Notes: generated by a model from the letters alone, not told the origin. Shown: positions 7,267 through 25,902, numbered from the stretch's first letter. The stretch: DNA of 33,015 nucleotides from Kiritimatiellota bacterium (GCA_013151865.1 JAADHN010000001.1:1-33015), one strand, 5' to 3'. Made by a program: numbers and translations.

Positions 7267-7298
7267 CATTGCGGTGCCCGGACGCCATCGAGGACAAC

Positions 7299-10200
7299 AT
7301 GAAAAAACAGGACAGTGAAAACCGGAAACCGACCGAAACCGGCACGACTCGCGGCGCTCCGGTGCGCCCCTTGGCGTGCCGGAAAGTCCGGGCGGTCCTC
7401 GGGGAATTCGTCTTCAACGAACTGGCCCCATCCCGCCGGGCCGCGGTCCAAGCGCACATCGACGCATGTCCCGAGTGCGCTCGCCAAGTCCAGGCCATGC
7501 TCCGGACCCGGGACTTGTTGGCCCGAGCCGTCGAGCAGTCTCCGGCAGCCGTGCTTACCCCCGCTCGACGCGAGGCACTTCTGACCGCGGCCCGCAAGGA
7601 ACGCCCGCACGCGCCCGGCGTTCCCTCTCCCGCGCGTCGCGGCTGGACATTGCTCGCCGGCGGCGCAACGGCCCGCGGGGTGGCTACGGCCGCCGCGGTG
7701 TTGCTCATTGTCGGGGGCCTCGTCGCCTCCCTACTTCTGCCGGCCCTTCGAAAAGCAGGTTTGCCCAGGTTCCGGATGGCGCGGTACGCGCCGACGACGA
7801 CCCGGCGAGGGACGGCAATAGAAGGGAGTACGCAGCGCACCGCACAGGCCCGTTTGGCGAACGATGCCGCCCGCGCAGCCAGCCTCCGCCGGGAAGGTTC
7901 GGACAGCTCCGAGATGCCGGTCGGTGGCGAAAAACCACGGAACATTCAAACGAAACCGGCCGCGGCCGGCGCCGGAACGCCCGACGGGATGGGCAGGGAC
8001 GGCGGCGGAATGCTTGCGACAAGTGAAACCGCAACCCGCTTTTTTGCCGCACCCAACACGAACGGCCCCGCGCTGAGGGCCGACGAAAGCGGCGCGACAG
8101 AAACCGCGGAACCGAAAACGGAGGCGGCCGTGGGGCTCGCCAAGAAACATGGCAGCCTCCGGCCTCGGGGCGGACAGGCGGAACCCGACCGACAGCGCCG
8201 CTCGCCCCGGACCGGAACCGAACCACGGCACGAACTCGGATCGAAACGCGCGACGAAGACGCCACTCGCGGACGCCGACGGCTTGGCCGATTCGTCCGGC
8301 CACGTTCGGCGACGCGCCCTTCGTGATGAGAGAATGAACGAAACAACCTCGAATGCTGCAGACGCTGCAAGAAGATCGTCTCTCGTCGCCAACCCCCTGC
8401 CCCCAAAGCTCGCTCTGCGGGGATTGGGGGCCTCGGCGCTCCCGAAAATGCCCGCCAATGAGTCGGCGCGGCGGCTTGCCGAAGACAAACTGTCGGTGCT
8501 GGGCCGCACGGTCGGACAACCGCCATTGCGCGGCAGCGCGGGAGAGTCCGCCGTTCGTGGACTGCCGAACTACCGAAGGAACTCGGATGAGAAACTCGTC
8601 CGCCGTCGGACGGTCAAGGCAAAGCGACTGTCGAATTGGAGAGGCCGCACCGACGACGATGCATCACGCCCCGCGATCACCCCCTCCTCTTGGCGCCGGA
8701 CGGCGCGCCCGGCAGCCCCGGCAGCTACGGTCGGTACGGCGCTGGCCGGAGACGATCGGCCGGTTCGAAACACCGCCAACGAACCCCGCGTCCTGTCGGC
8801 GGGGGCCGTGAAGGCGCCGACGAAACCGAAAGCCGGCGTCGCAGCGGCCTTCGCCGAAAAGATGGTTTACGGGCAGACTTCAGCCGACGCAATAGTCGCA
8901 AGAAAACCGACGATGCGCGCACCGCAAGCGGTGCCTCAGGACGCCGGAATCGAATCGAAAAAAGCCGAAACACTCGACCGCCTCGCCCTGTCGCCCGGCA
9001 AGTCCGACGCCGGGGATGTCGTTGCGCCGGCTGCCGGAGAGTCCCTATTGGCCTTCAGCGAACCAACTCGGCGCCACGTGTCGGAATTGCGGATTACGCC
9101 CGAGAGACAGCATGGAACGTCGGCGGCGGCCGCGGCACGAGCCCCGACACGGCGGGAAACGCTCGCCTCATCCAACCAAACCACCGAACCGGAGAAGCCG
9201 CCCGCAGCAATCTCGCCCGCGACGGACGTCGGTCAAAAACCGCTTCCCCTTCCCCCCCCTGTCCGGGTCAACCCGTTCGTGCTCACGGCGCGGGATCGAT
9301 TCTCCACGTTCGCGCTCGAAACGGATACGGCTTCATACGCCCGCACACGAAGCAGCATTCGGGCCGGTCGACTCCCGCCGCCTGCCGCGGTCCGACCGGA
9401 GGAATTCGTCAATGCATTCGATTACAATTATGCCCGAAACACTCGTTCGGCGTTCGCAGTGGATGTGGCGGGCGCACCGTCCCCGTTCACGCGCGGCCTT
9501 ACCCTTCTCAAAGTGGGCGTGACCGCCCGGAATGTCGGACGCGAAGCGATGAAGCCCGCGCACTTGGTGTTCGCGGTGGACGCCTCGGGATCGATGGACC
9601 GCCCGGACCGACTGGGACTGGTCCGGTATGCCCTGAAAAAACTCGTGCGGGAGTTGCGCCCCAAAGACCGGGTGTCTCTCGTCGTTTATGCCACCACAGC
9701 CCGGCTGATACTCGATTCGGTTCCGGCCGGTCGACAGGCGGTTATCGACCGGGCGGTCGACGCGATTCAGTGCCGGGGGTCCACCAACTTGCTCGAAGGG
9801 CTCGAGGCTGCCTACACTCTGGCCCGGAAACGATTCGAGTCCGGCGGGATCAATCGCGTGATTCTCTGCTCCGACGGCGTGGCCAACGTGGGACCGGACG
9901 AGGCCGGCGCCCTGCTGGCCCGAGTCGCGGATTACCGTAAATGGGGTGTGACCCTGACCGTCGTCGGAGTCGGGACCGGCGCCTATAACGACAACCTGCT
10001 CGAACAACTTGCGGACCGAGGCGACGGGGCTTATGTGTTCCTCGATTCGAAAGAAGAAGCCCGGCGCGTCTTCGTTGCACAGCTCGGGGGCACATTGCAA
10101 GTGGTGGCGCGGGACGCGAAAATCCAGGTTGAGTTCAACCCCGACCGGGTCCGGCGTTACCGGCTGATCGGATACGAGAATCGGGACATCGCGGACAAGA

Positions 10201-10619
10201 ACTTCCGGAACGATTCGGTCGATGCGGGCGAGGTCGGCAGCGGTCGGAGCGCAACCGCTTTGTACGAGCTGGAACTGACGGACGGGCGAAGCGGGACGGA
10301 GCGGGACGGACGAGACCTTGGGACAGTCTACGTGCGCTATCGAAGCGCGGACACCGGCAGGATCGAGGAAACATCGGCACGGATCCGGGCCGACGCCGTC
10401 CGCGAGCGGACGCCGGAGGATTCGCCGTACTTCTGGCTCGCCGTATGCGTCGGGCGTTTCGCAGAAGTCCTGCGCGGCAGTCCGTACGCCGCACCTGCGG
10501 ACCTACCGAGAATCGAGCGGATCGCAACCGAACTCGCCAAGGCATTGCCGCTGGACCGGCGCATCCGTGAATTCCGCGAACTCGTGGATCGAACCCGGTC
10601 CCTGATCGCCGCGAGATAA
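7299..10619 (+). CDS. transmembrane anti-sigma zinc finger fused to YfbK-like von Willebrand A protein
   Basis: 1106 aa. Domains in order: a zf-HC2 anti-sigma zinc finger with H53-x3-C57-x2-C60; a single membrane helix at about 128-150 (VLLIVGGLVASLLLPAL); about 500 residues of Arg/Ala/Pro/Thr-rich low-complexity sequence (about 151-656); a VWF_N-type segment (about 657-712, RFSTFALETDTASY); a von Willebrand A domain with intact MIDAS, DASGS starting at D761, then STN and CSDG; and a DUF3520-like C-terminus. The expected topology is finger inside, VWA outside. I start at the ATG 7299, with GAGGAC upstream, rather than the TTG at 7269. It probably holds the sigma factor of 6667-7266 at the membrane and releases it on an extracellular signal sensed by the VWA part. 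Separate zf-HC2 and YfbK families are known; their fusion across a giant linker is unusual. Confidence 0.85.
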   Translation: MKKQDSENRKPTETGTTRGAPVRPLACRKVRAVLGEFVFNELAPSRRAAVQAHIDACPECARQVQAMLRTRDLLARAVEQSPAAVLTPARREALLTAARKERPHAPGVPSPARRGWTLLAGGATARGVATAAAVLLIVGGLVASLLLPALRKAGLPRFRMARYAPTTTRRGTAIEGSTQRTAQARLANDAARAASLRREGSDSSEMPVGGEKPRNIQTKPAAAGAGTPDGMGRDGGGMLATSETATRFFAAPNTNGPALRADESGATETAEPKTEAAVGLAKKHGSLRPRGGQAEPDRQRRSPRTGTEPRHELGSKRATKTPLADADGLADSSGHVRRRALRDERMNETTSNAADAARRSSLVANPLPPKLALRGLGASALPKMPANESARRLAEDKLSVLGRTVGQPPLRGSAGESAVRGLPNYRRNSDEKLVRRRTVKAKRLSNWRGRTDDDASRPAITPSSWRRTARPAAPAATVGTALAGDDRPVRNTANEPRVLSAGAVKAPTKPKAGVAAAFAEKMVYGQTSADAIVARKPTMRAPQAVPQDAGIESKKAETLDRLALSPGKSDAGDVVAPAAGESLLAFSEPTRRHVSELRITPERQHGTSAAAAARAPTRRETLASSNQTTEPEKPPAAISPATDVGQKPLPLPPPVRVNPFVLTARDRFSTFALETDTASYARTRSSIRAGRLPPPAAVRPEEFVNAFDYNYARNTRSAFAVDVAGAPSPFTRGLTLLKVGVTARNVGREAMKPAHLVFAVDASGSMDRPDRLGLVRYALKKLVRELRPKDRVSLVVYATTARLILDSVPAGRQAVIDRAVDAIQCRGSTNLLEGLEAAYTLARKRFESGGINRVILCSDGVANVGPDEAGALLARVADYRKWGVTLTVVGVGTGAYNDNLLEQLADRGDGAYVFLDSKEEARRVFVAQLGGTLQVVARDAKIQVEFNPDRVRRYRLIGYENRDIADKNFRNDSVDAGEVGSGRSATALYELELTDGRSGTERDGRDLGTVYVRYRSADTGRIEETSARIRADAVRERTPEDSPYFWLAVCVGRFAEVLRGSPYAAPADLPRIERIATELAKALPLDRRIREFRELVDRTRSLIAAR

Positions 10620-17162: not shown

Positions 17163-17903
17163 TCAGTCGCCGGGGACGCGGTCCATCAGGTACGCCACTT
17201 CCACCTCCTTGGTCAGCGGAATAATCCACGAGGCATACAGTTCCACCACGCGTTCGGGATGGAGTCTGTAACGGAACTCCGGACCGGTGGAGATGTCTCT
17301 TCCATAGGTTTGGGCTTTGAGCCGCACACGCTCCAAGACGCATTGCTCGACGCGGGCGTCCGTGATCGCCGCCATTACCGCCTCGGTGTCGCGGCGGACA
17401 ATCAGGGAGCGAAACCGCTCCGGTTCCGCCCGAAACTTGCTCTCGGCCACGAACTTGCCGTAATGAATCCGCCGGGACAGAGCCTGCAGACAGGCCACGT
17501 CGCAGACCGAACTTGAGCCGTATTGGGCATCGTCGCCCGCAGTGCAGACAAACGGCACGATCTGTTGCTCGTAAACCATCCGGATGCGATCGTTCAGGTT
17601 GATCCTGTTTGGGTGCAACGGATCTTCGTCGTACCGGAGGGCGGGCAGGATCGGCTCGGGCAGGTCGGAAAAAAAGGGATGCTCGTCCGGACTGGTATAG
17701 CGCCGCATCTTCGCGTGGATCGCTTCGGTCTCATGCAGGAGATACCCCACCAGCGAACGCGACCCCACATTCGGAAAAGCACCTTTACGGTAGATGATCT
17801 CATTGTGCCGGAACTGGGCGCGTTCGATGAGGGCGAAGATGATTGTCTCCTCGAGTCGAATCAACACGTTGCGGATGTTGCTGAGCAGGAGCTGTTCGTT
17901 CAT
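17163..17903 (-). CDS. chorismate mutase, eukaryotic (plant/fungal) AroQ type
   Basis: 246 aa. Converts chorismate to prephenate for Phe and Tyr synthesis. The sequence follows yeast Aro7 and plant enzymes along its whole length, not the short bacterial AroQ. R16 in LIRLEE, R145 and K156 in SRRIHYGKFVAESK, and T231/E235 in PLTKEVE match yeast R16, R157, K168, T242 and E246. GDDAQYGSSSVCDVACLQAL is very close to plant enzymes and contains the Gly-Ser that in yeast lines the Tyr/Trp effector site, so allosteric control is plausible. The ATG at 17903 (complement 17901-17903) gives the expected N-terminus; upstream sequence does not look coding. It is divergent from the DUF362 gene, 179 bases away. 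Confidence 0.88.
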   Translation of the reverse strand: MNEQLLLSNIRNVLIRLEETIIFALIERAQFRHNEIIYRKGAFPNVGSRSLVGYLLHETEAIHAKMRRYTSPDEHPFFSDLPEPILPALRYDEDPLHPNRINLNDRIRMVYEQQIVPFVCTAGDDAQYGSSSVCDVACLQALSRRIHYGKFVAESKFRAEPERFRSLIVRRDTEAVMAAITDARVEQCVLERVRLKAQTYGRDISTGPEFRYRLHPERVVELYASWIIPLTKEVEVAYLMDRVPGD

Positions 17904-18082
17904 GGTTTTCTTGCTCTTCTCCCGGCGAATGTCCTTTTCGAGCCTCCCGCCTTCCGAACACGCCCGACACACTTGCAGGCATCCCACGGGACGCGCTTGA
18001 CCGGGACGGCCCGATCGCCCATAGTACCGGGCCGAACTCACCGGCACCCGAGCGCAGAACCAACGAGCCACGGTCGTTCCGC

Positions 18083-19276
18083 ATGATTCCGACCCCGAAC
18101 GCAACACCAGACGGCCCACGCAAGCAAACTGTAGTGTCCGTCGCGCGTTGCGCCAGTTACGCCCCGGAACTCGTCCGCCGAGCCGTGGAATCCGCCATGG
18201 CCCCCTTCGGCGGGCTCGCCGCCTGGCTCGGTCCCGGCCGGACCGTGCTCCTCAAACCGAACCTCGTAAGCCCGCATCCGCCCGAGGACGCCGTCACCAC
18301 CCACCCGGCGGTTGTGGAAGCGGTCGCCCGCCTCTGCCGCGAGTGCGGAGTCCATAACCTTTGGATCGGGGACAGCCCGGCGGGCGTCCATAACGACGCC
18401 GTGCTTTGGGAACGGACCGGGATGCGCAAGGTCGCGTCCCGCACCGGGGCCGAGCTTCGGTCGTTTGCGGTTCGCGATCTGAAGTCCGTCTCCTGCGGCG
18501 CGGAACGGGTGCCGGTACCCGCGTGGTTGGACGAGGTGGATGTAATCGTTTCGCTGCCCAAACTGAAAACTCATGCCTTGACCGGACTCACCTGCGCAAC
18601 CAAGAATGTGTTCGGACTCGTGGTGGGTGAAGCCAAGTCCATGGCCCATGCCCGACACGCGTCCCCTGAATCGATGAGTTCATTCCTGGCAGGGGTATAC
18701 GGCCGCCTACGCCCCCACCTGACCATCGTGGACGCCGTCGTCGCCATGGAAGGCGAAGGGCCCACCAATGGACGACCGCGGGAAGTGGGAGTGATCCTCG
18801 CCGGCAGCGACGCCGCCGCGGTGGACGCGGTGTGCGCCCGAGTCTTGGGAATGCCGCCGGAAGCGGTGCCCATGCTGCGACGGATCCGGGAGTCCGAATT
18901 GGGAGAAACGCGACTTGCGAGAATCGTAACGGTCGGCGATGGCGTCGCACGCCTCGATAAGGTCCGACTCAAGCCCTCGATGGCCCGCTGGTTGCAACGC
19001 ATCCCGGCGCCGGTTTTCAAACTGGCGACCTACCTGCTCGCCGCCCGTCCCCGGATCCGCCGGAAACATTGCATCAAGTGCGGGGCATGTGCCCGGATCT
19101 GCAGCCAACAGGCCATTGAATGGGATGAGAACGCCGAGCGATACCGCGTCCGGAAAGAGCGCTGTATCCTTTGTATGTGCTGCCTCGAAAGTTGCCCGTA
19201 CCGGGCCGTCGAGGTCCGCTCCCCCCTCCTGTGGCTGTCCAGACTCTCCGGTTGGCTACGGGATCGTAGCCGGTAA
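18083..19276 (+). CDS. DUF362 protein with two C-terminal [4Fe-4S] clusters
   Basis: 397 aa. The DUF362 region spans about residues 18-300 (VLLKPNLVSPHPPEDAVTTH, DVIVSLPKLKTH, GLTCATKNVFGLV, MEGEGPTNGRP, AVDAVCARVLG). A dicluster ferredoxin domain follows: C330-x2-C333-x2-C336-x3-C340 and C361-x2-C364-x2-C367-x3-C371-P. Such proteins are presumed redox enzymes or metal-cluster proteins of unsettled function; the proline after the last Cys of cluster one is replaced by Ser. There is no signal peptide. The ribosome site before 18083 is weak. A hairpin terminator lies just downstream. Confidence 0.85.
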   Translation: MIPTPNATPDGPRKQTVVSVARCASYAPELVRRAVESAMAPFGGLAAWLGPGRTVLLKPNLVSPHPPEDAVTTHPAVVEAVARLCRECGVHNLWIGDSPAGVHNDAVLWERTGMRKVASRTGAELRSFAVRDLKSVSCGAERVPVPAWLDEVDVIVSLPKLKTHALTGLTCATKNVFGLVVGEAKSMAHARHASPESMSSFLAGVYGRLRPHLTIVDAVVAMEGEGPTNGRPREVGVILAGSDAAAVDAVCARVLGMPPEAVPMLRRIRESELGETRLARIVTVGDGVARLDKVRLKPSMARWLQRIPAPVFKLATYLLAARPRIRRKHCIKCGACARICSQQAIEWDENAERYRVRKERCILCMCCLESCPYRAVEVRSPLLWLSRLSGWLRDRSR

Positions 19277-20421: not shown

Positions 20422-20512
20422 TAAGCCGTGAGCGACGGTTTCGACAAACGCCCCCCCCCGTCCCGCCCCGGGATTTCCGCAGCCGGGCCGGACCGAATCG
20501 GACTTGTATCAG

Positions 20513-21739
20513 GTGCATTCTCCTCCTGTCGACATCACGGGAATCGGACTTGTCTGCTGCCTCGGGACAGGGGCCGAGGCTGTCTACGGCGCCATGTGCG
20601 ACGGGGCGTGCGGTTTTCGCACCATCGATCGGTTCCCGAATGGCCTGTACCCACAGCAGCAGGCCGGCCAACTCCCGCCGGAGACCGAGGATCGACTCCG
20701 GGATGCATTCCCGGAAGAAGACATCGCCGGCGCCATGGTCGTCACGGCCGGACGTGAGGCCCTCGAGCAGGCCGGTCTGAACTCCGCGAGGTCCGACCCC
20801 CGGCTCGGACTGGTGCTCGGGACCAATTTCGGGCCGATGGAAACCCTCGAATGGTGTTGGCGCGAACGCGTCGACCTTGGCACGCTCGACACCGAAACGT
20901 TCGCGATCTGGCAAAAGTTCGTCTATCGGATGGCGGAACTTCTCGGATGCGGCGGACCACGCACACAGATTTCCCTTTCCTGCGCGTCGGGCGCCGCCAC
21001 CGCAGCCCTCGCTGCCGATTGGGTGCGCACCGGTGCGGCCGATCGGGTGTTGGCCGTGGGGTACGACGCGCTCACCGAATACTGCTGGTGCGGCCTCACC
21101 AACCTTCGAACGATCACAACCGACACCGTCCGCCCCTTCGATCGACGCAGGAGCGGGACCCTGTTCAGCGAGGGCGCGGCCGCCATGCTGCTCGAGCGGC
21201 GCGCCGCCCGACCCACGGACGGTCGCGCCGCCCTCGCCTGCTTGGCCGGCGCCGCAACCAATAACAACGCGTTCCACATGACCGCGCCGGCCAAGAACGG
21301 CGACGGCTCCCGCCGCGTCATGGCCGCAGCACTCCAGGACGCCGGCTGCGCGCCGGCCTGTGTCCAACACATCTGCGCCCACGCCACCGGCACCGCCGCA
21401 AACGACACGACCGAGGCTGCGGCGCTTCGGGGTTTGTTCGGCGAGCGGCTCGAGCACATGACCGTCGCGGCCCACAAATCTCAATTCGGGCACATGATGG
21501 GCGCGGCGGGCTTGGCCGAGGCGGTTGTCACGGTACAGGTCTTGCGGCACGGCATCGTCCCCCCCACCATTCACTCGGAAGAACCGGATCCGGCCTGCAG
21601 GCTTGACTGCGTCCGTGGAGAGGCCCGAAAGCGTACTGTCCACTGGGCCCTCACCAACTCGGCGGGACTCGGCGGCAACAACGCTGCGCTCCTGCTGCGG
21701 GCCCCGCAGCCACAACGCCCGGAGGGCCCCCGGCAATGA
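20513..21739 (+). CDS. beta-ketoacyl-ACP synthase (KAS I/II type)
   Basis: 408 aa, the normal length for a FabF/FabB-type condensing enzyme, which extends an acyl chain on acyl carrier protein with malonyl-ACP. The Cys-His-His triad is complete: Cys157 in LSCASG, His290 in AHATGT and His327 in KSQFGHMMGAAG; the gatekeeper FSEGAA is also present. No ATG fits the start; GTG at 20513 gives VHSPPVDITGIG, which aligns with the family start, and TTG at 20504 would add three residues. The stop overlaps the next gene (ATGA). It heads an operon with a half-length KS-like protein, a glycosyltransferase and an ACP, so it probably serves a specialised acyl chain rather than housekeeping fatty acid synthesis. 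Confidence 0.88.
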   Translation: MHSPPVDITGIGLVCCLGTGAEAVYGAMCDGACGFRTIDRFPNGLYPQQQAGQLPPETEDRLRDAFPEEDIAGAMVVTAGREALEQAGLNSARSDPRLGLVLGTNFGPMETLEWCWRERVDLGTLDTETFAIWQKFVYRMAELLGCGGPRTQISLSCASGAATAALAADWVRTGAADRVLAVGYDALTEYCWCGLTNLRTITTDTVRPFDRRRSGTLFSEGAAAMLLERRAARPTDGRAALACLAGAATNNNAFHMTAPAKNGDGSRRVMAAALQDAGCAPACVQHICAHATGTAANDTTEAAALRGLFGERLEHMTVAAHKSQFGHMMGAAGLAEAVVTVQVLRHGIVPPTIHSEEPDPACRLDCVRGEARKRTVHWALTNSAGLGGNNAALLLRAPQPQRPEGPRQ

Positions 21740-22461
21740 AGCGACCGAAGATCAAAGTGGCCGGAGTCGGCTGGGTCCTGCCTTGGGACCGCGCGGCCGG
21801 CGACCGCCCGCCTCCGCCCCCGGCGGGATACAAACCCGGTCCGGACGACCTGAAGACGTTCCGCCCGAAAGAGTATCTCAATTCGGTCAAGGGGTATCTG
21901 GATCCGATCGCCGGCTACGCGCTGGCGTCCGCGGCGCTTGCCCTCGGAGACTGGCGCGAAAAGTTGGTCGGAGGGAATGTCCGCGACGACGCCGGCGTGG
22001 CCTCGGTGACGTTCTACGGCGCCCAAACTTCGGCTTTTCGCTTCTACCGGCAGTTCGCGTCCAAAGGACCACGCTGGGCCAGTCCCATGGTTTTCCCCCA
22101 CGGCTACCCCAATACGGCGGGCAATCTCGTAGCCATCGAGTTCGGTTTCGGCGGTCCTCACATGGCCTTCAGCGCCGTCGACGCCGTGGCTACGGCGTTC
22201 CACTTCGCCGCCAAGTGTCTCGCCGCGGGCCACGCTCGACACATGCTCGTCATCGGAGCGGAAGCCGGCCTGCCCGAGGCACTGCCCGACCGGGCCGCCG
22301 TTGCCGGCGGCAGCATTACGGTCTGGTTGACCACCGAGGACGCCGTTCCCCGCAAGGACGCGCTTGATGCGGTCCTCGCGGCAACTCCCAACAGCGACCA
22401 GGGCTCTTCCTCCCCCCCGCAGGGAGCAGTGGACGAAATGCTCGGTTTTCTCCGAAGTTGA
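21736..22461 (+). CDS. half-length ketoacyl-synthase-like protein lacking the active Cys
   Basis: 241 aa, matching only the N-terminal half of a ketoacyl synthase. The stretch GFGGPHMAFSAVDAVATA aligns with the active-site loop, but no Cys stands at the nucleophile position (S-A-V/D instead of T-A-C), and HMLVIGAEAG follows as in KS folds. Stand-alone KS N-terminal domains of this size (Ketoacyl-synt_2 type) occur in aryl-polyene-like clusters, where a KS works with a non-catalytic partner similar to the chain-length factor of type II polyketide synthases. Its start overlaps the KS stop, consistent with forming a heterodimer with it. It could not condense acyl chains alone. The N-terminal region is unusually Pro-rich (DRPPPPPAGY). 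Confidence 0.75.
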   Translation: MKRPKIKVAGVGWVLPWDRAAGDRPPPPPAGYKPGPDDLKTFRPKEYLNSVKGYLDPIAGYALASAALALGDWREKLVGGNVRDDAGVASVTFYGAQTSAFRFYRQFASKGPRWASPMVFPHGYPNTAGNLVAIEFGFGGPHMAFSAVDAVATAFHFAAKCLAAGHARHMLVIGAEAGLPEALPDRAAVAGGSITVWLTTEDAVPRKDALDAVLAATPNSDQGSSSPPQGAVDEMLGFLRS

Positions 22462-22512
22462 ATCGCCCCGGCCATCGAGTCGGGCCTGACCGCGCACAGT
22501 AAAGGAAACTCC

Positions 22513-23436
22513 ATGTCCGAGTCCGTACACGCCTCTCTCGTCATGTTGGCCCACAACGGACACGCCTTCACCCGCACCTGTCTGGAAAGCCTGCTTCGGG
22601 CCGGAGATATGCCCGGCGAGTTCTTCCTGATCGACAACGGCTCAACCGATGCCACGCCCGACTTGATTGCGGAGTTCGCACCCCGGTTCGAGGATGCCGG
22701 AGTCCGATTCGTTACTTGGCGCAACGAGCAAAACAAGGGATGTTCTCAGGCCCGGAACGAGGCGTGGGAACGGGCTGCCGGCCGGTATGTCGTTTTCATG
22801 GACAACGACACCGCCGCCTGCACTCGCAACTGGCTGTCGCTTCTGGCGAAGTCGCTCGACGACGCCCCCGAGGCAGCGTTGGCCGGCCCGAAATTGATTT
22901 ATCCGTTCCGTCCGCACCCGATCCAATGCGCCGGTGTGTCCTTCAACCGGCTGGGACGGGTGGCGTTCCGAGGGCGGGGCCGCCCCCGCCACACACCGCA
23001 ATTCTCGTTTCGCCGGTCCGTGCCCGCTCTCATCAGTGCGTGCTGGATCATGCGGAACGATCTGCGGCACACCATCGGCATGCTGGACCGACTTTTCCAT
23101 CCGGTCCAGTACGAAGATCTTGATCTCTGCCTCCGGGCCCGCCGGGCCGGGTTCGATGTGCTTTACAATCCCACGGTGGAGATGTATCATTTCGAGGGAA
23201 TCACCACCGCCGCTGTGGGCGCGACGGAATATCGGCGGAACATCGCCCGCAACTCGGCTCGGTTCCGCGAGCGCTGGCATGAGGTATTCCCCGTGTTCGA
23301 AGACGACCTCGCGCCGGGCGATTACCGGTGGATCTCGCGCCGGGAACTCGGCCTGCGCCCCGAACTCGATCTGACTTTGTGCGATCCGGCGTCGGATGCG
23401 ACGCCCGAAACCGGTGGAACAAAAAAGGACCCCTGA
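22513..23436 (+). CDS. family 2 glycosyltransferase
   Basis: 307 aa. The GT-A fold of GT2 is evident: SLVMLAHNG at the N-terminus, FLIDNGSTDATPD, NKGCSQARNEAWERA, and the metal/nucleotide motif DND (D97-N98-D99) in VFMDNDT. The acceptor region includes ISACWIMRND and QYEDLDLCLRARRAGF, the ED-x-D-LC-R pattern common to rhamnosyl- and other sugar transferases. There are no membrane helices, so it acts in the cytoplasm or at the inner membrane face. AAAGGA lies before the ATG. It sits between the KS pair and the ACP, four bases ahead of the ACP start, which suggests it glycosylates the acyl product made by this operon. Confidence 0.85.
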   Translation: MSESVHASLVMLAHNGHAFTRTCLESLLRAGDMPGEFFLIDNGSTDATPDLIAEFAPRFEDAGVRFVTWRNEQNKGCSQARNEAWERAAGRYVVFMDNDTAACTRNWLSLLAKSLDDAPEAALAGPKLIYPFRPHPIQCAGVSFNRLGRVAFRGRGRPRHTPQFSFRRSVPALISACWIMRNDLRHTIGMLDRLFHPVQYEDLDLCLRARRAGFDVLYNPTVEMYHFEGITTAAVGATEYRRNIARNSARFRERWHEVFPVFEDDLAPGDYRWISRRELGLRPELDLTLCDPASDATPETGGTKKDP

Positions 23437-23439
23437 CCC

Positions 23440-23694
23440 ATGGCCACCATCCAAGAGGCCCTCAAGGAACTCATTGTCGACCGTCTCTTTTTGGACATCG
23501 AACCGAGCGAAATCGACACGGACACTCCGCTTGCAGAATACGGGGTGGACTCCTTCTTGCTGCTCGAGTTGATCGTGGCCCTCGAGGAACTTTACGACAT
23601 CAAGTTCGAGGAAAGCGACATCACCGCCGAAACCCTGAAATCCGTCGCCAGTCTGACCGAACTCATCCAGACCAAGCAAGGGGGGAGTGGGTAA
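23440..23694 (+). CDS. acyl carrier protein
   Basis: 84 aa, acidic and helical, as expected for an ACP. The phosphopantetheine attachment serine is S38 in EYGVDSFLLLEL, where the common DSL has become DSF. The surrounding helix II (LLLELIVALEELYDIKFEE) is typical. It carries the growing acyl chain for the ketoacyl synthase at the head of the operon. The ATG follows the GT2 stop by three bases, so coupling is likely. A dedicated ACP in such an operon points to a specialised product; the main fatty-acid ACP should be elsewhere. Confidence 0.88.
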   Translation: MATIQEALKELIVDRLFLDIEPSEIDTDTPLAEYGVDSFLLLELIVALEELYDIKFEESDITAETLKSVASLTELIQTKQGGSG

Positions 23695-23738
23695 GCAGAC
23701 GCGGCGCGTCCCCACCGCACCGGCCTCCGCCCGGTACG

Positions 23739-24614
23739 TCACCGTCGCCCGCCTCCTTCTCCCAAAACTGTCAGCTCGGAGCCGAATACCGCACCGACCC
23801 GCTCGGCCAAACCGGGCGCAGGCGGCTCGGCGAAAATCCCGAATACGGTCGGACCGCTGCCGGAAACGTGCGTTGCCAGGGCCCCTTCTCCGTCGAGGAA
23901 TTCCCGCAGCAGCCCGACCAGCGGAAACTTGTCCCCGACGGCGAATTCCAACGCATTGTACATCTGCGCCGCAAGTGCCTGCAGCGTCCCGCCCGAAAAC
24001 GTCTCCACGAACTTCGCGGCCGACACCCGCGCGGCCGGACGCGGCGCGCGGTCCAGGTTGGCATACGCCCAGGCCGCGGACACCGGGAACTCCGGCGCGA
24101 GCAGCACCAGGCAAAGATCGCGCCGGAACGGAACGGGCGCCAAAGTGGTTCCCGTGCCTGTACCCAACGCCGGGACCGAAGGCCCCAGAAAAAACGGAAC
24201 GTCCGCACCGACCGTCGCTGCAACGCGCAACAGCTCCTGCGGATTCAACACGCCGCCGCAGGCCCGGTTCAGCAAACGAAGGACTGCACCGGCGTCCGAG
24301 CTGCCTCCGCCGAGACCGGCCGCCACCGGAATACGCTTCTCGATCGCGATCCGCCAAGACGCGGGGACCCCGGCCGCAGCGGCATACGCTCGGGCCGCAC
24401 GAATACAGATGTTTTCGGCATCATCGGGGACCGCGGGATGATCGCAGACGACGGTCACTCCCGCCCTATCGACAACTTCGACCTCAATTGTGTCCGTCGG
24501 CGCCGGGAGCGGGTAGAAGAAAGTCGCAATCTCGTGATACCCGTCATCCCGGCGCCCCAGAACATCCAGGAAAAGGTTGATCTTCGCCGGCGTCTCGGCA
24601 CGAAAAACCTGCAC
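23739..24614 (-). CDS. ispE: 4-diphosphocytidyl-2-C-methyl-D-erythritol kinase
   Basis: 291 aa. GHMP-family kinase of the non-mevalonate (MEP) isoprenoid pathway; it phosphorylates CDP-ME with ATP. The N-terminus PAKINLFLDVLGRRDDGYHE and the ATP loop VAAGLGGGSSDAGAVLRLLN are IspE signatures, with GADVPFFLGP and the C-terminal SGSGPTVFG also in place. I start at the GTG with complement 24612-24614, because GGAAGGAG lies upstream and the protein then begins just before the conserved KINL; a longer frame to 24818 adds Arg/Gly-rich sequence without homology. It converges on the ACP gene with a 44-base gap. It has no evident tie to the KS operon. Confidence 0.9.
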   Translation of the reverse strand: MQVFRAETPAKINLFLDVLGRRDDGYHEIATFFYPLPAPTDTIEVEVVDRAGVTVVCDHPAVPDDAENICIRAARAYAAAAGVPASWRIAIEKRIPVAAGLGGGSSDAGAVLRLLNRACGGVLNPQELLRVAATVGADVPFFLGPSVPALGTGTGTTLAPVPFRRDLCLVLLAPEFPVSAAWAYANLDRAPRPAARVSAAKFVETFSGGTLQALAAQMYNALEFAVGDKFPLVGLLREFLDGEGALATHVSGSGPTVFGIFAEPPAPGLAERVGAVFGSELTVLGEGGGRR

Positions 24615-24810
24615 GGCTCGACTCCTTCCGTCCGTTCGGACCGCGGTCAGACAAAAACAGGAGACGCTCGGCCGCGTTTTACCGGATCCACGACCGTCTC
24701 CTGCCCCCGCCGCGCCCGATCCCGATTGCCGGATGCTGCGTCCCTTTGCCCGCCGACTCCGGAATTCCATGCTCCCGACCGGCCTCTGCCGTGCCGGAAT
24801 GCCTATCGCC

Positions 24811-25902
24811 TCAAACATCCCGACCGGTCTCGACAGGCTTGTCCCACACCCCCGGAATAACCGCGCCGCATTCCGAACACAGGCCTCCGCGCAACCGGTT
24901 CTGTATCAAATAGAAGCCGCGGCGTTCGAGCAGGAGAGCACCGCACCCGGGGCAAAGCGTGTTCTCCGCATTGCCGAGCCCCGGCACATTCCCGCCGTAC
25001 ACATACCGCAAGCCGGCTTCACGGCCGATTCGCACAGCGGTGCTCAAGGTCGATCTCGGGGTCCGTCCCGGGCCGCTCGACATCTTGTAATCGGCGTGGT
25101 ACGCCGTCACGTGCCAAGGAATGTCCGGGCTGACGGAGACGATGAATTCCGCGATGGCTCGGACCTCAGCCGGCCCGTCGGTGAAGCCCGGCACCAGAAG
25201 TGTGATCACTTCGACCCACTTGCCGCGCCTGTGAAGTTCGCGAATCGTTTCCAGGACCGGCCCCAGTCGTCCGCCGAGCCGACGATACCCGGCCTCTGTG
25301 AAGCACTTCAGATCCACGTTCATCGCATCCAAAACAGGATCCAGGTACTCCAACACCTCCGGACCGGCAAAACCGTTCGAGACATAGCAGGTGAGCAGAC
25401 CGCGCTCCTTGGCGAGTTGAAAAACCTCACGCGACCATTCGGACGTGATCAGCGGTTCATTGTAAGTGCTGCTGATCACCGGCGCCCCACGCCGTTGCGC
25501 CAACGCCACCAATTGTTCGGCCGTGCACGGCTCGGGTATTGCGGTCGCCGCCGAGTCGCGGACCGCTTGAGAACTCATCCAATTCTGACAGAAAGGACAC
25601 TGAAAGTTGCACCCGAGCATCCCGTAGCTGAGCGCATCCCGGCCCGGCAAGAAGTGATAAAACGGCTTTTTTTCAATGGGATCGCACGCCACGCCGGCCA
25701 CATAGCCCCTGGGAACAAAAAGCTTGCCACTCCGGTTGAAGCGCAACCGACAGACACCGCGGCCGCCCGGCGGGATCCGACAATGGAACGCACAGGCCAG
25801 GCACTCGACCAAACCCTCGGTCCCGCCGGGGACCGGGATCGAGAGGGCGCCGGGACCCGCGAGAGCATCCAATCTCCGAACAAGACCGGTTCGAACGTCC
25901 AT
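24811..25902 (-). CDS. amrS: AmmeMemoRadiSam system radical SAM enzyme
   Basis: 363 aa. The radical SAM motif is C98-x3-C102-x2-C105 in GCNFQCPFCQNW. The N-terminal Cys cluster (ECLACAFHCRIPPGGRGVC) and IEKKPFYHFLPG, SYGMLGCNF, STYNEP, VSNGFAGPEVL and NVDLKCF follow the AmmeMemoRadiSam radical SAM subfamily. Two C-terminal CxxC pairs (CPGC and CSEC) look like a zinc ribbon. The partners that name the system (MEMO and AMMECR1 proteins) are not in this window, so it is either an orphan or has its partners elsewhere. The chemical reaction is unknown. GGAGAC precedes the ATG at 25902. Confidence 0.85.
   Translation of the reverse strand: MDVRTGLVRRLDALAGPGALSIPVPGGTEGLVECLACAFHCRIPPGGRGVCRLRFNRSGKLFVPRGYVAGVACDPIEKKPFYHFLPGRDALSYGMLGCNFQCPFCQNWMSSQAVRDSAATAIPEPCTAEQLVALAQRRGAPVISSTYNEPLITSEWSREVFQLAKERGLLTCYVSNGFAGPEVLEYLDPVLDAMNVDLKCFTEAGYRRLGGRLGPVLETIRELHRRGKWVEVITLLVPGFTDGPAEVRAIAEFIVSVSPDIPWHVTAYHADYKMSSGPGRTPRSTLSTAVRIGREAGLRYVYGGNVPGLGNAENTLCPGCGALLLERRGFYLIQNRLRGGLCSECGAVIPGVWDKPVETGRDV

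Follow-up and report, generated by a model that had tools for sequence, protein, structure and literature searches.

The usual primer of a fatty-acid or polyketide chain is acyl-CoA or acyl-ACP, an acyl group on an acyl carrier protein (ACP), and lipoyl arms normally pass their acyl group to CoA via an E2 acyltransferase. The locus considered here, four genes on a contig of a Kiritimatiellota bacterium (GCA_013151865.1, JAADHN010000001.1:1-33015), encodes a ketosynthase (KS), a small KS-like partner, a family 2 glycosyltransferase (GT2) and an ACP. The window analysed is the entire 33-kb contig (33,015 nucleotides), and the source genome is 6.2 Mb in size and 97% complete. Among the closest described systems, the aryl polyene pair ApeO-ApeC (PDB 6QSP) consists of a KS and a half-size chain-length factor (CLF) with one thiolase fold, which form a heterodimer (PMC8358021). 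In cispentacin biosynthesis, AmcF, AmcG and AmcB make up a KS-CYF-ACP set in which AmcG needs AmcF for solubility (PMC10698177). In the quinocarcin-type QncL/M/N and scleric acid SclQ1-4 systems, E1 and lipoyl modules load a C2 unit onto an ACP (PMC6335953).

With moderate confidence, we propose that the four genes form part of a larger pathway conserved in Verrucomicrobiota-type bacteria (PVC group), which would work by the mechanism set out below. Judged from sequence comparison, the ancestral order appears to have been giant secreted protein, lipoyl/E3-binding (PSBD) protein, ketoreductase (KR), KS, CLF, E1alpha, E1beta, GT2, ACP and the alpha/beta hydrolases HYD2 and HYD1; in the source genome these genes are scattered. 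The pathway is apparently undescribed, and we found no report of such a system in the open-access papers searched. The window carries the following section of it:

20504-21739, + strand: KS (411 aa), PF00109+PF02801, Cys-His-Lys-His intact, member of the system-KS clade
21736-22461, + strand: half-length CLF-like partner (241 aa), weak PF00109, N-terminal thiolase half only, no Cys and no His/Lys half
22513-23436, + strand: GT2 glycosyltransferase (307 aa), PF00535, orthologous to the operon GT2
23440-23694, + strand: ACP (84 aa), PF00550, GVDSF phosphopantetheine site

All four open reading frames (ORFs) lie in tandem on the + strand where an earlier sequence-only reading had placed them, and an alternative KS start is a GTG at 20513. 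Orthologues of the window genes at 30-71% identity are present in many genomes, and the four ORFs are thus real genes; the ACP has orthologues of 59-73% identity in most system genomes. The tight operon with overlaps that had been described holds at the KS/partner junction, a 4-bp ATGA overlap, but the partner is separated from GT2 by a 51-bp gap without overlap and GT2 from the ACP by a 3-bp gap. The single Pfam match of the partner at the reporting threshold (E<=0.01) is a weak one to PF00109 (E 2.8e-6). Among the window ORFs scanned with Pfam, no reductase, dehydratase or thioesterase was matched, in line with the same reading.

A phylum-wide search of 388 genomes, in which full-length CLFs turned up in other families, placed this section in a larger operon. 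Five loci (L249, L253, L254, L257 and L259) all share the order lipoyl/E3-binding-KR-KS-CLF-E1alpha-E1beta-GT2-ACP-HYD2-HYD1, and a sixth (L248) follows the same order as far as GT2. In 6/6 of these, L248 included, a gene for a giant protein lies directly 5' of the lipoyl gene; its reading frame measures about 1,700-2,230 aa, and the retrieved sequence truncates some copies. In 4/6 there is at least one conserved gene 3' of the operon; in L259 these are GT4-type glycosyltransferases. The window corresponds to the KS-CLF-GT2-ACP section in the same order, with E1alpha and E1beta gone from its middle. The giant protein family is confined to genomes with the system, and its members are putatively secreted, as suggested by a signal-peptide-like N-terminus read by eye. 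The family, of about 2,000 aa, features LamG and 3-keto-disaccharide-hydrolase-like regions (L249:1258-7266, L172:3965-9970, L257:12973-19671 and others), and in the source genome it is represented on contigs C97 and C163.

The co-inheritance of the components follows the same pattern. Six component families, namely half-size or full-length CLF, lipoyl-KR, GT2, ACP, hydrolases and giant protein, are limited to the same 35/60 genomes; all six occur in 22 genomes and none in 25. The lipoyl-KR accompanies the KS-partner pair in 28/30 genomes and is found in 3/30 genomes without the pair. In genera g20 and g27 of family f8 all components are missing together. Gaps in the component set are concentrated in incomplete assemblies. 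Many of the genomes searched are metagenome-assembled.

Within the order of the window, the KS and its partner are the only always-linked pair. The synteny predicted for relatives is therefore absent inside the order, but the genes occur together across genomes, and other families of the phylum have them in colinear order, so the dispersal does not refute the pathway. The source genome illustrates this arrangement: E1alpha and E1beta lie on C116 (about 51% identical to the pair of genome G005), contig ends interrupt the lipoyl/E3-binding-KR fusion on C13 and C46, C87 carries the hydrolases and, between the two, a third alpha/beta hydrolase, and the giant protein is in two pieces, on C163 and C97. 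A reductase, for which a look at the flanks of the locus had been suggested, was thus unmatched in the window ORFs scanned and is present as the KR on other contigs. The idea that GT2 and ACP are unrelated neighbours, being unlinked in most relatives, was rejected on the phyletic co-occurrence and the ancestral operon; the ACP adjoins or sits near GT2 in G000, G004, G005, G012, G015, G020 and G022. A plasmid search with GT2 yielded generic GT2s only, at 28-34% identity among the matches listed.

The genes added by the relatives give the pathway its distinctive character. In about ten relatives, lipoyl, E3-binding and FabG-type KR domains are encoded directly upstream of the KS, either fused or in separate genes. 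Every covering sequence conserves the lipoyl Lys (33/33) and the KR Tyr and Lys (31/31). G005 shows the order lipoyl/E3-binding, KR (separate genes), KS, CLF, E1alpha, E1beta, the last two being pyruvate-dehydrogenase-like; G006 has KR, KS-CLF, E1alpha, E1beta; and G012 has E1alpha, E1beta, the orthologue of the window GT2, ACP, HYD2 and HYD1. HYD2 and HYD1 of G012 resemble exosortase-A-associated hydrolases 2 and 1. Against the TIGR03100 and TIGR03101 cut-offs, the separate hydrolases score at best 144/202.75 and 100.7/168.45 and the fused hydrolase protein of G005 scores 169.4/202.75 and 147.7/168.45, all below threshold. The acyl-plus-sugar pathway suggested from the window is consistent with GT2 and ACP belonging to the same ancestral operon. 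The pathway had also been called minimal, a description not supported in view of at least six further genes (E1alpha, E1beta, lipoyl protein, KR and two hydrolases) and the giant secreted protein. Reduction had been suggested to be borrowed from fatty acid synthesis, but a dedicated KR fused to a lipoyl/E3-binding domain accompanies the KS in almost every genome.

The lipoyl, E3-binding and FabG-type KR domains stand in one protein at L043:6637-7992, with orthologues in about 30 genomes. To our knowledge this architecture has not been described, and no report of a lipoyl-KR fusion of this kind, or of a lipoyl domain combined with a ketosynthase or polyketide synthase, was found in the open-access papers searched. 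A first assignment of the 430-475-aa neighbour of the KS as a dehydratase-KR fusion proved wrong, as Pfam gives lipoyl, E3-binding and KR domains. The E2 catalytic domain (2-oxoacid_dh) was unmatched in the lipoyl and lipoyl-KR proteins, which match Biotin_lipoyl and E3_binding, with no genome-wide search for that domain made. The third alpha/beta hydrolase between HYD2 and HYD1 (Peptidase_S9/DLH-like) recurs in the window's order (L275:8494-9699, L270:9309-10640, L269:7807-9987) and is not part of the ancestral operon.

Structurally and phylogenetically, the 241-aa partner is, on the evidence of sequence and modelling, a truncated CLF descended from full-length CLFs. Its homologues typically lie directly 3' of a KS, and KS and half-CLF form one ORF in 13 aligned relatives (587-667 aa). 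Families f6 and f7 have a full-length Cys-less KS as the partner, which in G006 is fused to the KS in a single 847-aa chain. The catalytic Cys is present in 0/27 aligned halves and 0/17 full-length CLFs, the halves also lacking the His/Lys half, whereas Cys-His-His-Lys is complete in 34/34 system KSs, the window KS included. At the Cys column the partners carry various residues, among them R, N, D, P, E, K and V, but never Q; Gln in place of Cys is known only from classical aromatic CLFs. The N-terminal-domain tree groups halves with full-length CLFs, apart from every KS and FabF (support 1.0), and places the system KSs in one clade distinct from FabF (support 1.0). A housekeeping FabF role for the window KS was rejected, given this clade and a separate KR-ACP-FabF set on C169.

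The AlphaFold2 model of a natural KS/half-CLF fusion from a relative reached pLDDT 80 and pTM 0.89, and its Foldseek alignment with the didomain KS-CLF of PfaC (6riw) spans both domains (763 columns, TMq 0.67). The window half modelled alone (pTM 0.82) adopts a KS N-terminal thiolase fold. From the natural fusions, this model and its superposition on PfaC, the partner is predicted to form a KS-type pseudo-dimer with the KS. The KS/CLF logic proposed from the window thus gained from fusions, tree and model alike. Half-size CLFs are already known from ApeC, and AmcG is a similar small partner; the KS plus half-size CLF is therefore a variant of a known architecture. Among solved KS/CLF pairs, the window KS and the half-CLF profile are both closest in sequence to chains B and C of PDB 9s5h, a two-KS entry named only '3-oxoacyl-ACP synthase'. 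A link to ladderanes was considered in this context and no evidence for it was found; a 2009 comparative-genomics paper on ladderanes mentions neither lipoyl nor Lentisphaera.

Such an architecture would also suit an ordinary KS-CLF or an iterative synthase of the aryl-polyene or polyunsaturated fatty acid (PUFA) type, elongating repeatedly with housekeeping FabG/FabZ while GT2 and ACP finish a glycolipid and the lipoyl-KR and E1 proteins are bystanders. The half-size CLF with a single thiolase fold is exactly as in ApeO-ApeC (PMC8358021), and the fused model resembles the PfaC KS-CLF. We nevertheless regard this explanation as unlikely: the lipoyl-KR fusion occurs in 28/30 genomes with the KS-half pair and directly upstream of the KS in about ten, E1alpha and E1beta lie inside the ancestral operon between CLF and GT2, and no dehydratase is linked, unlike in aryl-polyene clusters. 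The aryl-polyene logic read from the window thus stands as far as a half-size CLF beside a KS, but the scanned ORFs of the window and the conserved operon neighbours revealed neither an aryl-AMP ligase nor a dehydratase.

A cispentacin-type KS-CYF, as in AmcF-AmcG, would instead perform one C2 elongation and close a five-membered ring on an AmcB-like ACP, the ring being glycosylated afterwards. AmcF, AmcG and AmcB are among the NCBIfam matches of all three proteins, and AmcG, too, is a small KS half without Cys and depends on AmcF for solubility (PMC10698177). The scores, however, fall below the curated cut-offs (AmcF 210 vs 325, AmcG 28.8 vs 80, AmcB 52.9 vs 80) and the window KS scores higher with FabF models. 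Moreover, the partner descends from full-length CLFs, and no homologue of AmcC, AmcE or AmcH, the adenylate-forming ligase that activates and loads 2-oxoglutarate, was recognised among the conserved operon genes, which makes this explanation very improbable. Canonical membership in the cispentacin type, as well as in the aryl-polyene type, was rejected on cut-offs and missing genes.

For the proposed pathway, we infer the reaction steps, substrate and product as follows. E1alpha/beta, with thiamin diphosphate (ThDP), would decarboxylate a 2-oxo acid, probably pyruvate, and reductively acylate the lipoyl domain. Since the operon holds no E2 acyltransferase domain, the acyl group may pass to the active-site Cys of the KS or to the dedicated ACP. 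The KS-CLF dimer would then condense it with malonyl-ACP, the malonyl group coming from housekeeping FabD, and the KR, fused to the lipoyl/E3-binding domains in the window's order, would reduce the beta-keto group. The operon has no dehydratase, so the product is expected to be a beta-hydroxyacyl-ACP. Hydrolases of the exosortase-A-locus alpha/beta type may off-load or transfer the acyl product, and GT2 may add a sugar; the resulting acylated glycan or glycolipid would probably decorate a surface polysaccharide or the giant secreted protein.

Loading via a 2-oxoacid-dehydrogenase-type lipoyl domain is probable. More tentatively, we consider it possible that the lipoyl domain primes a type II KS directly: the E1-loaded lipoyl-Lys would be served by a KS-CLF in place of the E2 acyltransferase, with the KR on the same lipoyl/E3-binding arm and a product destined for the giant secreted protein. 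Alternatively, the E1alpha/beta-lipoyl system could acylate the ACP directly, with the KS-CLF acting as an acyltransferase without elongation and the KR reducing the acyl or keto group, for example towards a lactyl- or glycolyl-type decoration. Qnc and Scl load C2 units on an ACP via E1-lipoyl modules with no KS (PMC6335953), and a KS could fill the role of the acyltransferase domain that is not present here. Yet the residues for decarboxylative condensation, Cys-His-His-Lys, are kept in 34/34 system KSs and a FabG-like KR suits a beta-keto product, so that we hold a non-elongating role for improbable.

Several points weigh against the pathway as proposed. E1alpha and E1beta are unlinked from the KS in the window's order, and their orthology in the source genome was called by best hit rather than by a tree. 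The operon E1beta exceeds the pyruvate dehydrogenase (PDH) E1beta cut-off (NF006667) and could hence be an ordinary PDH located there by chance; E1alpha is below the PDH cut-off. The system is present or absent in entire families, and with this phylogenetic structure in the co-occurrence the Fisher p-values overstate independence. The AlphaFold2 input was the natural fusion of a relative with 13 sequences only, not the two separate proteins of the window. Finally, no malonyl-transferase, dehydratase or classical acyltransferase is linked to the operon genes.

An operon that places E1alpha/beta and a lipoyl/E3-binding protein next to a KS-CLF and lacks an E2 catalytic domain suggests that central metabolism directly feeds a chain builder. 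Conserved over several families, the pathway would give PVC bacteria a dedicated acyl-sugar route linked to a giant surface protein. It is easily missed because its genes are dispersed in the window's order, the CLF is halved and no single locus looks complete.

The surroundings of the locus include further genes. The ACP is followed by a convergent ispE; the GT2 orthologue adjoins ispE in G044 as well (L054:3388-5330; window counterpart 22513-24818, with GT2-ACP convergent with ispE), where a half-CLF lies about 7 kb from the GT2/ispE pair. An AmmeMemoRadiSam-type radical SAM enzyme (24811-25902, - strand; TIGR04337, above cut-off) overlaps ispE by 8 bp. Upstream, a DUF362 protein with a C-terminal 4Fe-4S ferredoxin domain (18083-19276, + strand) is divergent from a chorismate-mutase-domain protein (17163-18119, - strand), and a 1,116-aa protein (7269-10619, + strand) comprises a zf-HC2 zinc-finger N-terminus, a vWFA domain and a YfbK C-terminal domain.

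Compared with known systems, the locus shares with ApeO-ApeC a KS paired with a half-size CLF, but the window partner matched PF00109 alone and KS and CLF form one chain in many relatives. In contrast to aryl-polyene clusters, there is no linked dehydratase, AMP-ligase or second KS, and E1alpha/beta and lipoyl-KR are present instead. AmcF-AmcG-AmcB likewise comprises a KS, a small Cys-less KS-half partner and a dedicated ACP, whereas GT2 and E1-lipoyl modules are not in the Amc cluster and AmcH, AmcC and AmcE were not recognised here. PfaC (6riw) carries KS and CLF on one chain, and the fused model superposes on both domains; its full-length CLF belongs to a PUFA megasynthase, while here the CLF half is truncated and the proteins are discrete. 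The XrtA exopolysaccharide locus (TIGR03100/TIGR03101) resembles the operon in its HYD2-HYD1 pair beside an ACP and GT4 glycosyltransferases, but the hydrolase scores lie under the curated cut-offs. With pyruvate dehydrogenase the operon has in common E1alpha/E1beta, lipoyl (conserved Lys) and E3-binding domains, and an E1beta that passes NF006667; it differs in having no E2 catalytic domain, in the fusion of lipoyl/E3-binding domains to a FabG-type KR in the window's order and in an E1alpha below the PDH cut-off. The Qnc/Scl C2-unit system is the closest biochemical precedent for E1, lipoyl and ACP loading: ThDP proteins resembling E1alpha and E1beta are united with a lipoyl domain and a dedicated ACP in one cluster, which has an E2 acyltransferase domain and feeds a nonribosomal peptide synthetase, whereas here KS-CLF and KR take that place.

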